DNA from: Sulfuricurvum sp.
GTDB lineage: Bacteria; Campylobacterota; Campylobacteria; Campylobacterales; Sulfurimonadaceae
NCBI GenBank assembly: GCA_024637295.1
Contig: JAGXFL010000002.1
Span: forward strand, 124,001-188,000
Direction of reading: 5' to 3'
Length of the DNA stretch: 64,000 nucleotides
The position numbers were made by a program, and so were the translations under genes. The notes beneath the pieces are model-generated. The model was not told where the DNA came from, searched no databases, and worked only from the letters and a program-made list of their open reading frames with translations. Numbering within the stretch: position 1 is the first letter of the stretch; the number at the start of each line of letters is the position of its first letter. Below are positions 12,839-16,983 of this stretch, piece by piece.

Positions 12839-13781
12839 CTGCTTCTATTACCTCATTTGAAGTGATGCTTTTCATGCATTCGTGATGTCCCAGTGGGCAT
12901 TCACGCTTCATGCACGGTGCGCATTTCATGTCGTGTCGTACAATAACACTTTTCTCATTTTGCCATTGCGATGTTTCCAAATGGCGTGTCGGACCAAAAA
13001 TAGCGACTGTAGGTACTTGATATGCCGCCGCGACATGCATAGGACCGCTGTCGTTGGTGATGAAAATATCTAGCCCTCCGATCATCGAGCACAACTCTTG
13101 GACTGATGTCTTTCCTGCGATATTGTTGACAGTTATACCTTCTAATCGTGACTCAATATCATTGGCCATTTCGATTTCATTTGGACCTCCGAAAATGACA
13201 ATATCATGTGTTTGTGCAAATGCTCTGGCTACATCGGCAAATTTTTCAGGATACCATCGTTTGGCGCTGCCGTACGTTGCTCCGGGATTGATACCAAGAG
13301 TTGGATGATCATAGACATGGATTGGCAGATGAAGTTGAAGCTTGCCTAGTGTGAGAGGTTCATTGAATATGCTTTGCGCAATTTCACGATATTGTTCTAC
13401 TAAGTGCGAAGGATGTGTTGGCTTGATAGTATGGGTAAGAAATAGAGTTGAATGCCAGCTTTTTCGTCCGGCGGTTATAGGTGTGCCGCTGTAAAAGAGT
13501 AAAAGAGAAGAATGCAGTTGGTTTCGAAAGGTAATCGCCATATCATGTATTCCCAACTCTTTGGCAAAACGGTAGGTATTGAGAAAGCGGTTCCCCCCTT
13601 TTTTGGTTTCATCGACATAACTGCGAATACACAATGGATGATGTTTGAGTGCTTCAATGCTGACATAAGAACCCACCAGTGTGAGTTGTGCATTTGGATG
13701 CAGAGAACAAATTGCCTCGATAGCAGGAGTAGCCATCACGGCATCACCTAGCCAATTTGGAAGAATGATCAAGATTTTCAA
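12822..13781 (-). CDS. waaF: ADP-heptose:LPS heptosyltransferase II
   Basis: GT9 glycosyltransferase that adds the second heptose to the LPS inner core. N-terminal MKILIILPNWLGDAVMATPAI and C-terminal TNDSGPMHVAAAYQVPTVAIFGPT are classic WaaF motifs, with the ADP-heptose-contact segment NPGATYGSAKRW. The TTG at 13781 is chosen: it follows AAGGAT at the right distance and gives a canonical N-terminus, whereas a longer open frame would add 26 unrelated residues. This start overlaps the stop codon of the upstream gene. Two Cys-rich stretches near the C-terminus (KCAPCMKRECPLGHHECM) are common in the family. 319 residues. Confidence 0.93.
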   Translation of the reverse strand: MKILIILPNWLGDAVMATPAIEAICSLHPNAQLTLVGSYVSIEALKHHPLCIRSYVDETKKGGNRFLNTYRFAKELGIHDMAITFRNQLHSSLLLFYSGTPITAGRKSWHSTLFLTHTIKPTHPSHLVEQYREIAQSIFNEPLTLGKLQLHLPIHVYDHPTLGINPGATYGSAKRWYPEKFADVARAFAQTHDIVIFGGPNEIEMANDIESRLEGITVNNIAGKTSVQELCSMIGGLDIFITNDSGPMHVAAAYQVPTVAIFGPTRHLETSQWQNEKSVIVRHDMKCAPCMKRECPLGHHECMKSITSNEVIEAVKSLI

Positions 13782-14953
13782 TGCGTATCCTTGTAAGTAT
13801 AGCTTGGAATTGAGTTCAGATTCCATGCGATATGAAGCTCTCCTCTTGGAGTGGAACACACTAAGCAGTGTTCGTTTTCATTTTCGTGATAACTACAAAA
13901 ATGTGCATCGTTTAGATGAGAAAGCATTGTTTGATACGCATAAAAAGCATGCCGTTTGACAATAACACCCTCTCGATTATCGATAAGCCCGTATCCGGGA
14001 GCAATGAGTTGATGCCAATAGACGGTAGAGACTTTTTGGGTAGCAAACGCGAGTAAATGATAGCGAATCATATAATTGGTGTAATCGTCTTCGTTGACAC
14101 ATTCAAATTCGCTGGTGGGTGCATAGGGGGCTGTGTTTTTAATCGGCCAATTGGTCTCGGTGATGATGAGTTCATTGGCACTTTTAAAACTAAGCCGCAT
14201 CAATGCATCAATAAGGTTGATTTTACCCATGAGATTAAACCCCATTTGGCGGTTTTCAGGAGCACCGCGTCGATCGACATACAGTAGTGTTCCCAATGCG
14301 TCAAAATAAATATCTTTGAGATTAAAAAGTGTATGGGTGGTAAAGTGCAGTTCAAAGTCGATGACGTTGGAACCGATAAATTTGAGATTAGGGAAGGACT
14401 CTTTTTTCAAGGCATGGGCAACGGCATAAAATTTTAGATATTCGTTGACGCTAAAAAATCCCCATTTGGCACGGTTGATGGTAGAACCGATAACGTAAGT
14501 ATTGCAACTGTTTTCAAGAGCCGTAAAAATTTGGGTTAAATGTTTTTTAGTGAGAGCGTGATTCGTGATATGTTGACGGTCTTGTAAAATGGCAACGGTG
14601 ATGTGGTGCTCTTTGAACGATCGGATAAACGCGATGTATTCATCTAAACGATCCATTTCCCAAAGAGGAATACGAATAAGCAGTTTTTTGACCCCAAGCT
14701 CGTGGATCATTTCAGGAGCGATGGAGGGGCTGTTATTGAGGTTGACTCCCATACCGAAAAATTTTTCACCGCTTATTTTTTTACGGGGAAGAAAAAGAGT
14801 GATGATGAAAGCGATGGGTAAAACAAATAGAGCAATTAAAAAAGTTTTGATGAGGGAGGGCAGAGCACTACGGCGCATCTTACGCTTGAGCGATTTGTCA
14901 CGGATGATGGCAGGTTGGTCGGAATAGTGATCCCAAGAAAACGGTTCTTTCAT
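13778..14953 (-). CDS. membrane-anchored glycosidase-like (TIM-barrel) protein of unknown function
   Basis: 391 residues with one membrane helix near 36-54 and a large domain outside. The repeated strand-helix pattern, an ITETNWPI strand and a terminal beta-rich part resemble clan-A glycoside hydrolases. In those enzymes the acid/base is usually within an N-E pair; the corresponding strand here reads IGSTINRAKWG, with no Glu, so it may be catalytically altered. It is cotranscribed with waaF (stop and start codons overlap) and has its own -10 box, so a role in LPS or surface glycan metabolism is likely. I do not recognise the family. Confidence 0.55.
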   Translation of the reverse strand: MKEPFSWDHYSDQPAIIRDKSLKRKMRRSALPSLIKTFLIALFVLPIAFIITLFLPRKKISGEKFFGMGVNLNNSPSIAPEMIHELGVKKLLIRIPLWEMDRLDEYIAFIRSFKEHHITVAILQDRQHITNHALTKKHLTQIFTALENSCNTYVIGSTINRAKWGFFSVNEYLKFYAVAHALKKESFPNLKFIGSNVIDFELHFTTHTLFNLKDIYFDALGTLLYVDRRGAPENRQMGFNLMGKINLIDALMRLSFKSANELIITETNWPIKNTAPYAPTSEFECVNEDDYTNYMIRYHLLAFATQKVSTVYWHQLIAPGYGLIDNREGVIVKRHAFYAYQTMLSHLNDAHFCSYHENENEHCLVCSTPRGELHIAWNLNSIPSYTYKDTH

Positions 14954-14965: not shown

Positions 14966-15008
14966 GCGTTATTGGGTAAAATAACCTTATTAGAGTAAGG
15001 ATGCATAA

Positions 15009-15059
15009 TGAATATATTGGTAGTACGCAACGATAAGCTAGGCGATTTTATCACAGCAT
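15009..15059 (+). repeat. 51-bp direct repeat, left copy
   Basis: Bases 15009-15059 are identical to 16013-16063, without a single mismatch. The repeat lies over the first codons of the glycosyltransferase and bounds a 953-bp segment. Confidence 0.95.
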
Positions 15060-15065
15060 CCCTCG

Positions 15066-15086
15066 TTCCCACTTTTCAAGTGGGAA
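15066..15086. repeat. REP-like hairpin at left edge of the insert
   Basis: TTCCCACTT-TTC-AAGTGGGAA, a perfect 9-bp stem with a 3-base loop. Together with its flanks (CTCG before, TGCAGAC after) it resembles a palindromic family scattered in many proteobacterial genomes, as far as I can recall. No second copy was noticed in this window. Confidence 0.6.
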
Positions 15087-15157
15087 TGCAGACAATTAAA
15101 GACGACTATTCACTCTCACTTGCGGATAATGGGAGCAAGAGAAGGAATGCGGTATAA

Positions 15158-15799
15158 ATGAACTTTTTAAAATGGCTAATAGATATTTTGTTTGGGTGGA
15201 TATTCAAAGCTGAAAATTCATACCTAAAAGTACTAAAAGAGCGGTATCTATCGCTTATTGTTGTTCCGGTATTAATTATATCTGTTCCCCTCTATTATGT
15301 GAAAACATTCTATGCCGTGATAGTTGATGTACCAATCGCAATATTTATCTTTGTTTTAATAATAAAGCTACTAATACGCGTACTTAAAAGAGATTTTCTA
15401 GAAGTCTTTGTGCAGTCTATCCGATTAGTTGTAATTGCTATCACTATTATGATGTGGTGGCATTATCTGAGTACCAGTGTTGATAAGACAATTGAACGTT
15501 TTGAGGCAAAACGGGATTATTATATCCGTAAAGCCGCTGAACGATCTGTAAATATAAAAAAAGGGGAGTATCCATTAGTTATGTTTAACTTAAAAATGGA
15601 CAATCCAACCATAAAACGTAGCATTATTTATGACAAGACTGATAGTTATTTTAATCCTAAAATAATTGTTAGTCCTTCATCTAAACGTGCTGACAATGAT
15701 TTGTGTAATGTAGTTGTCAAAATCGAGCCGCATTTTTATTATAGTCGTATTTGCTACGATCATGAAATCTCGAACGAATTTGATTATATTGAAGAATAG
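15158..15799 (+). CDS. membrane protein of unknown function carried by the insert
   Basis: 213 residues. Three hydrophobic stretches (roughly 33-50, 52-72 and 88-105) are followed by a soluble domain of about 100 residues rich in charged and aromatic residues (ending FYYSRICYDHEISNEFDYIEE). No known motif is seen. The frame starts one base after the stop of the chimeric peptide, so it could be translated by reinitiation from the native ribosome-binding site of the interrupted gene. Its more AT-rich codon choice differs from the flanking LPS genes, in keeping with acquisition. Confidence 0.6.
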   Translation: MNFLKWLIDILFGWIFKAENSYLKVLKERYLSLIVVPVLIISVPLYYVKTFYAVIVDVPIAIFIFVLIIKLLIRVLKRDFLEVFVQSIRLVVIAITIMMWWHYLSTSVDKTIERFEAKRDYYIRKAAERSVNIKKGEYPLVMFNLKMDNPTIKRSIIYDKTDSYFNPKIIVSPSSKRADNDLCNVVVKIEPHFYYSRICYDHEISNEFDYIEE

Positions 15800-15947
15800 A
15801 TATAGGGATCAGGTGATACCGAATAACTCCAAAAGTACGAATGAATTTTCCATTAAGGACGAAAAAATAATTGAAGAGATAGTGGATAAATTATATACTT
15901 TTTAGTGATTTTTACGTTGCTACGCCTGCGCAAACACTTTTTAAAGT
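15800..15947. other. right part of the insert, no convincing gene
   Basis: Contains a short frame ending at 15905 whose last 30 codons (from IPNNSKSTNEF to KLYTF) look protein-like, perhaps the tail of a decayed gene, but there is no start or ribosome-binding site of its own. Otherwise no structure seen. Confidence 0.4.
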
Positions 15948-15953
15948 TATAAT
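15948..15953 (+). promoter_or_regulatory. -10 box supplied by the insert to the intact GT9 gene
   Basis: TATAAT 59 bases before the GTG start of the intact glycosyltransferase, inside the inserted segment. Confidence 0.4.
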
Positions 15954-16011
15954 GCCTGAAGCAAAAGAAGCGTATACGGTTGGCACAAGTAAAATTAAAC
16001 AAGGTGGTCTA

Positions 16012-16983
16012 GTGAATATATTGGTAGTACGCAACGATAAGCTAGGCGATTTTATCACAGCATTGCCCACGCTTTATGTACTCAAACATTATAATCCTGC
16101 TAATCGTATTATTGCTCTCGTCGCACCGCTGAATCGTAAGTTGGCCCAATCGTGTGATTTTATTGATGAGGTGATTGTGGATGATAGCCCAGATATTTTG
16201 GAGCTGACGTTTAAAATCAAAAGAGCCAATATCGATGCTTCCCTCACGCTGTTTTCAAACACTCGCGTCGCCATCGCTCAATTTTTGGCGCGTATTCCCA
16301 TTCGTATCGCTCCCGCTACTAAAATGGCTCAAATCTTTTACAATCGGCGTATCAAGCAACGTCGCAGTAGGGTGGAGATGGCGGAGTTTGAATACAATCT
16401 TGAGCTTTCCCGGGCACTTTTTAGTGATATTTCACTTGATTTCCCTAAGCCACTTTTGCACTTTTCACAGGATAACTTTCAAAAGTTTTGTGCTGAATAT
16501 GGAATCACAAAGCCGGTCGTGGCTTTTCATCCGGGATTCGGAGGATCATCCGATGCGAACTGGACGTTGGAAGAATACATAACATTGGTATCGATTGTGA
16601 CAGAACATGAGGCTATCGATGTTGTGATGACTTTTGGACCTGATGAAGAAACGCTTTACACTGAGGCCAAGAGTCTATTAGGTGAGAGCAGGGTGGTTCT
16701 ATATCGCTCACAGGGGAGTGTTGTAGACTTCGCATCATTATTAAGTCGATTCAAGCTCTTTGTCAGTACATCAACAGGAACCTATCATTTAGCCAGTGCC
16801 AGCGGATGTGAGACGTTTACCTTTTTTGGCGATTCAAAATTCGCATCTGCGGCACGTTGGAAAAGCATTGGGGAAGAGAGCCGCCAGCACCATTTTATGA
16901 TTCCTTTGGATACAATAGGACGTGCAGAGATGTTTGAAAAAGTCAAACGGGAGTTGAAAAGTTTCCTTTTAAAAGGTTTTTGA
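16012..16983 (+). CDS. GT9-family (heptosyltransferase-like) LPS glycosyltransferase, intact copy
   Basis: 323 residues with the GT9 pattern: N-terminal NILVVRNDKLGDFITALPTL, mid-protein FHPGFGGSSDANW (nucleotide-sugar contact) and C-terminal STSTGTYHLASASGCETFTFFG in place of the NDSG-x2-H motif. Donor is probably an ADP-heptose or similar sugar. The GTG at 16012 is chosen since it aligns with the ATG of the severed copy and follows AAGGTGG; a frame open from 15952 would add 20 residues from inserted DNA. The last 41 bases overlap the convergent kinase-like gene. See the 51-bp repeats. Confidence 0.85.
   Translation: MNILVVRNDKLGDFITALPTLYVLKHYNPANRIIALVAPLNRKLAQSCDFIDEVIVDDSPDILELTFKIKRANIDASLTLFSNTRVAIAQFLARIPIRIAPATKMAQIFYNRRIKQRRSRVEMAEFEYNLELSRALFSDISLDFPKPLLHFSQDNFQKFCAEYGITKPVVAFHPGFGGSSDANWTLEEYITLVSIVTEHEAIDVVMTFGPDEETLYTEAKSLLGESRVVLYRSQGSVVDFASLLSRFKLFVSTSTGTYHLASASGCETFTFFGDSKFASAARWKSIGEESRQHHFMIPLDTIGRAEMFEKVKRELKSFLLKGF
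16013..16063 (+). repeat. 51-bp direct repeat, right copy
   Basis: Identical to 15009-15059. It forms the 5' end of the intact glycosyltransferase gene. Confidence 0.95.

Follow-up and report, generated by a model that had tools for sequence, protein, structure and literature searches.

Repetitive extragenic palindromic (REP) sequences are among the commonest bacterial repeats, and roughly one bacterial species in four has REP-associated tyrosine transposases (RAYTs, or TnpA-REP); REP dissemination is stated to be unresolved, with 'no evidence of tnpAREP mobility' (PMC8266576). In vitro, TnpA-REP of Escherichia coli cleaves single strands of DNA next to REPs and joins a 3'-OH to the 5' side of a cleaved REP (PMC8266576). 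No long target duplication or direct repeat at REP insertions, and no passenger genes, were found in the REP literature (PMC8266576 and the surveys of REPs and of REP doublets forming hairpins (REPINs), PMC3116915 and PMC3733652; openly licensed papers only, so novelty is provisional). Here we describe a 953-bp insertion at the start of a family 9 glycosyltransferase (GT9) gene of a Sulfuricurvum sp., located in a 64,000-nucleotide stretch of contig JAGXFL010000002.1 (the window). Whereas reported REPs and REPINs are short units, the REP at the edge of this insertion, like those at similar places in congeners, leads an islet (0.1-3.7 kb) flanked by a long target duplication (25-140 bp).

The two copies of the 51-bp repeat around the insert (15009-15059 and 16013-16063) are identical and form the sole perfect direct repeat of at least 24 bp in the window. 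In the left copy, GT9 retains its native upstream region and first 17 codons, and the right copy runs on into an intact gene encoding 323 aa (Pfam Glyco_transf_9, 1.5e-12). All of this agrees with the initial annotation, which had been made from the letters of the window, as does a duplication far longer than transposons normally leave: DDE transposons have terminal inverted repeats and duplicate 2-14 bp, whereas this insert has no terminal inverted repeats and a 51-bp duplication. With one mismatch allowed, the repeat grows to 54 bp (15006-15059 and 16010-16063). Because that only mismatch is the start codon (ATG at 15008, GTG at 16012), the GTG, formerly ascribed to the inserted DNA, may be a point change in the copied ATG. 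The proposed ribosome-binding site (RBS; AAGG) and TATAAT box do lie within the insert; in a promoter scan, no site with this TATAAT reached the consensus threshold, and the hexamer, as the sole hint, suggests an unproven new GT9 promoter. Such a replacement promoter, once thought to preserve the target, is not required, because transcription from the old promoter could extend through to GT9.

GT9 orthologues were found in 35 of the 41 genomes of the genus. In an alignment of relatives, most congeners have a single GT9 start about 55-60 bp from the divergent gene, and no relative has a second copy of the start. The insertion is therefore derived and lineage-specific. The alignment suggested in the initial annotation thus found intact loci lacking the insert and no ancestral repeat.

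The first base of the insert, 15060, is also the outermost base of a REP within a bacterial interspersed mosaic element (BIME). The 'unrelated DNA' said to follow the left copy starts precisely with this palindrome and is read in frame as far as ORF213, an orphan membrane-protein gene: the left GT9 copy stays open across the BIME for 49 codons, and its TAA touches the ORF213 ATG. The sequence fits the REP/BIME type in being a short palindrome with multiple dispersed copies and inverted pairs. A search for the segment in the same genome, also proposed earlier, found that only its first ~84 bp recur, at four other places (80-89% identity); the rest is single-copy. A donor for the insert was sought in its own genome, in 41 congeners and in plasmids, phages and viral contigs, and matches were confined to REPs, motifs and the leader of ORF213.

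REP/BIME palindromes are the kind recognised by RAYT transposases. A single RAYT (Y1_Tnp) gene was detected in the genome, on another contig (C10:63271-63801, over the Pfam cut-off), and the same REPs lie on both its sides. The locus thus resembles described REP/BIME/REPIN and RAYT systems in palindrome kind, inverted pairs and a single REP-flanked RAYT gene. The idea that the element had lost or never carried its enzyme holds for the insert itself; the genome's RAYT gene lies outside it. The REP flanks are T-rich, with T in 62% at -4 and 72% at -3 from the CTCG core.

Eight further loci in congeners show the same anatomy (Table 1): a target copy of 25-140 bp, a REP edge, co-oriented cargo, a short tail, and the target again. 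The cargo includes RAYT genes (two islets), orphan immunity-like genes or a BIME alone, and in the cargo cases inspected the genes point away from the REP edge. Because the duplicated copies range from identical to 88% alike, the events are, to judge from sequence, of different ages. The loci had been fetched because they contain REPs or the ORF213 leader, and repeats played no part in the choice. Across 52 loci, a REP edge abuts six of 22 non-REP direct repeats (expected 0.04; maximum 2 in 2000 permutations), and in all six the REP lies inside the insert, never outside. Five of the six loci had been fetched in the way just described, and five remain when the window is excluded. Additionally, the outer flank was repeated downstream for 11 of 90 REP cores tested, mostly ending 1-6 bp from the core, and one of 12 REP ends in a held-out set showed a duplication (25 bp, perfect, around a RAYT-bearing islet). 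Near a weak match to a REP (L172), a repeat of 45 bp proved to be of the dispersed intergenic kind and was rejected as a target duplication.

These islets thus share an exact REP edge on one side, a far end that varies, long duplications and cargo directed away from the REP. We read the GT9 insert as a REP-led islet whose left joint was probably made by a RAYT, in a one-ended insertion leaving a long target duplication (probability roughly 0.6). Specifically, the RAYT (a single-strand HUH enzyme) of contig C10 would have joined the outer edge of the REP/BIME hairpin to the GT9 target after a T (...CACAGCAT / CCCTCGTTCCCAC). The other end would have been joined 51-54 bases back in the target, leaving a partial target on the left and an intact one on the right. 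This far end might be resolved by repair or by replication or synthesis on the complementary strand, for example on single-stranded DNA at a fork, and such resolution would set the duplication length. The islet presumably brought in the immunity-like ORF213, with the BIME standing in place of the upstream effector gene. The old GT9 promoter and RBS would then serve a 49-codon leader, itself coupled to ORF213 through TAAATG, and GT9 would become a downstream gene with its own RBS. Copying of its start by the insertion is what lets GT9 survive; the effect on GT9 may be neutral, and the old promoter may also serve ORF213.

Transposition of the IS200/IS605 type (IS608-like, single-strand) is similar in its related Y1 HUH enzyme and in a left end joined after a short target. 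It differs in having no large duplication and defined hairpins at both ends, whereas the GT9 insert has a 51-bp duplication and neither a hairpin nor a common sequence at its right end. Several points weigh against a RAYT-made joint. Among studied relatives the IS200/IS605-type enzymes are the closest, and they leave no large duplications (PMC2817692); E. coli TnpA-REP cleaves between C and T, which the junctions here do not match exactly. The right ends of the islets share no common sequence, so the way they formed is not indicated. Moreover, a duplication is detectable at only about 10% of REP ends, and 16 of the 22 direct repeats in these loci touch no REP. Finally, support from empty sites is confined to GT9, by alignment, and to the RAYT and BIME targets, where such sites are apparent.

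The main rival to a RAYT-made joint is template switching without a dedicated enzyme, in which a nascent strand leaves GT9 at the T, copies a REP-led segment elsewhere and returns 51 bases upstream, with REP hairpins as favoured switch points. It would yield exactly the GT9 anatomy with any duplication length and right ends without common sequence, and REPs do form hairpins. Nevertheless, switching would have to begin precisely at the outer REP edge every time and never outside the repeat, and we regard it as unlikely. Homology-facilitated illegitimate recombination, a model proposed for orphan immunity arrays in Vibrio (PMC5361080), would have incoming DNA (REP, ORF213, tail and GT9) recombine through GT9 and join illegitimately at the REP. 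In its favour, the last 18 bases before the GTG match the native GT9 upstream region of one congener at 14 of 18 positions; this match was noticed post hoc, and none of 103 gene starts reaches 14. However, the donor must already have held the islet beside the same gene, which leaves its origin unexplained; a joint exactly at the REP edge is not predicted for nine unrelated targets; sliding identity revealed no inter-species mosaic over GT9; and such events usually delete target DNA (PMC3240628). This route is quite improbable, and like integrases it explains less than a RAYT-made joint.

Integration by a recombinase supplied in trans, of the tyrosine or serine type and with the 51 bp as att core, would place the insert beside SXT in prfC and the dusA elements, which likewise supply a new upstream region and leave the interrupted gene whole (PMC8409611). 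Such gene-restoring insertions at 5' ends, already known, also show that preservation of the target is less unusual than the initial annotation held. Those elements use an integrase and one fixed target, whereas the GT9 islet and its relatives do not: the 953-bp insert has no integrase gene, no target is common to the cases, and the 25-140 bp duplications copy different genes. The integrase/att reading was rejected on these grounds and has very little probability left. The narrower claim of site-specific integration into gene 5' ends fails as well, since equivalent islets lie at the 3' ends of trmA and a helicase gene, after mnmG, in the 5' end of a RAYT gene and in a BIME. Least credible is an assembly artefact or chance: the case rests on assembled sequence and the repeat length is near common k-mer sizes, but the structure recurs with differing repeat lengths in several separately assembled genomes, and repeat counts and permutations exclude chance.

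If the joints are RAYT-made, REPs and RAYTs could drive a distinct insertion pathway, one-ended and single-strand, in which REPs, RAYT genes and passengers (orphan immunity genes, for example) are moved and duplications of 25-140 bp are left behind; these duplications would be the first footprint of REP spread. We advance this tentatively, at a little short of even odds. The shared REP-led arrangement may record the way in which such abundant repeats spread, and its combination of a REP edge and a long duplication, with cargo, allows REP spread to be tested directly by strain comparison. The islets also point to a route that moves small defence-type genes while the gene at the landing site stays whole.

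ORF213 appears immunity-like: in congeners, putative immunity genes that adjoin type I-secreted effectors have a start in common with it. Its first ~48 bp are 85-88% identical to small membrane-protein genes of congeners, several of which adjoin type I secretion genes and RTX-type effectors; past the leader the bodies differ. With the putative immunity genes that follow effectors it has in common the leader and 12 of 16 bases of the effector-gene tail, whereas no effector is present here and the body is unrelated. In the same databases as above, no relatives of the ORF213 body were found. PADLOC, NCBIfam and PHROGs gave nothing useful, and an AlphaFold model (mean pLDDT 55) was not used. The effector linker was not found in the own genome, in a search with a query from congener G005 and without an own positive control. 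Like orphan immunity genes in acquired interbacterial defence, ORF213 is an immunity-like gene without an effector and was probably acquired horizontally; unlike the orphan immunity genes of type VI secretion systems, it has a type I secretion/RTX-type context and is carried in a REP-led islet. The effector tail DNA AACTTCAAAAATACAAGGAGAGTGGCATAA directly precedes the start codons of unrelated small genes at L083, L084, L085, L082 and on the own contig C10 (L100:4358-4570), in intact type I secretion/RTX-type loci and also as orphans. On C10, the tail fragment and the orphan gene after it lie right beside the RAYT islet. The pattern is consistent with a polymorphic effector-immunity module in Sulfuricurvum. 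At L085:7707-7985, the last codons of an effector gene fragment are encoded by a REP, as if the REP had truncated the gene.

Table 1. Features around the GT9 insertion (window positions) and REP-led islets of congeners (genome:contig)
Location	Strand	Feature or cargo	Duplication	Target or remarks
13778..14953	-	Divergent neighbour gene, 391 aa		No assigned function; start ~55-60 bp from GT9 start in most relatives (empty site)
15008..15157	+	49-codon fusion ORF		Native GT9 ATG and 17 codons, then BIME; TAA abuts ORF213 ATG; from sequence
15009..15059	+	Left partial target copy	51 bp, perfect; from 15006, 54 bp if one mismatch is allowed
15060..15143	+	BIME: REP palindrome CCCTCGTTCCCACTTTTCAAGTGGGAATGC and degenerate inverted REP		Outer edge is left end of insert; 80-89% copies elsewhere in own genome
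15142..15157	+	Stub of conserved effector-gene tail AAGGAGAGTGGCATAA		12/16 bases; in relatives, full tail lies ahead of immunity-like genes
15158..15799	+	ORF213, orphan membrane protein, leader MNFLKWLIDILFGWI		Putatively immunity-like; at 85-88% identity, leader DNA matches genes adjoining type I secretion/RTX-type effectors
15801..15829	+	Dispersed intergenic motif ATAGGGRTCAGGTGATAMC...		In genus, frequently close to REPs
15830..16011	+	Insert tail, 182 bp		No relatives found; TATAAT 15948-15953, AAGG 16001-16004
16012..16983	+	Intact GT9-family glycosyltransferase gene		GTG start
16013..16063	+	Right target copy		Runs on into intact gene
G007:C8		RAYT and two small genes	46 bp	After mnmG
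G012:C92		Orphan gene array	83 bp, 95%	trmA 3' end
G003:C98		Orphan gene with ORF213-type leader	about 127-140 bp	DEAD-box helicase 3' end
G003:C22		Small gene	about 94-142 bp, 88-98%	RAYT 5' end, full RAYT restored
G007:C18		BIME	58 bp, perfect	Nested in BIME
G009:C29		BIME only	37 bp, 89%
G016:C24		Small lipoprotein gene	26 bp, 92%
G009:C13		RAYT and membrane protein	25 bp, perfect	From held-out loci

Peptides translated from the insert tail (VATPAQTLFKV..., YRDQVIPNN...) matched no family. Other DNA has been gained at the same intergenic spot in congeners: an acyltransferase gene in G003, and a TnpB-type gene between the divergent gene and GT9 in G028 (L090, G028:C8, 3778-4947), whose near-identical sister G036 has an empty site. 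In G029 (L092, G029:C2:2014000-2024000), GT9 is broken, with its first half on the - strand, its second half inverted and a kinase-like gene between them. Long direct repeats around one or a few genes, with no REP at the edge, were seen at L111:613/2079 (39 bp), L141:1162/4666 (57 and 25 bp) and L138:13/3399 (38 bp), and may reflect a second source of long duplications in the genus. The motif ATAGGGRTCAGGTGATAMC gave 20 matches in the 41 genomes, against none for a reversed control, and it was seen at L059, L067, L104, L105 and L158 as well as in the window.
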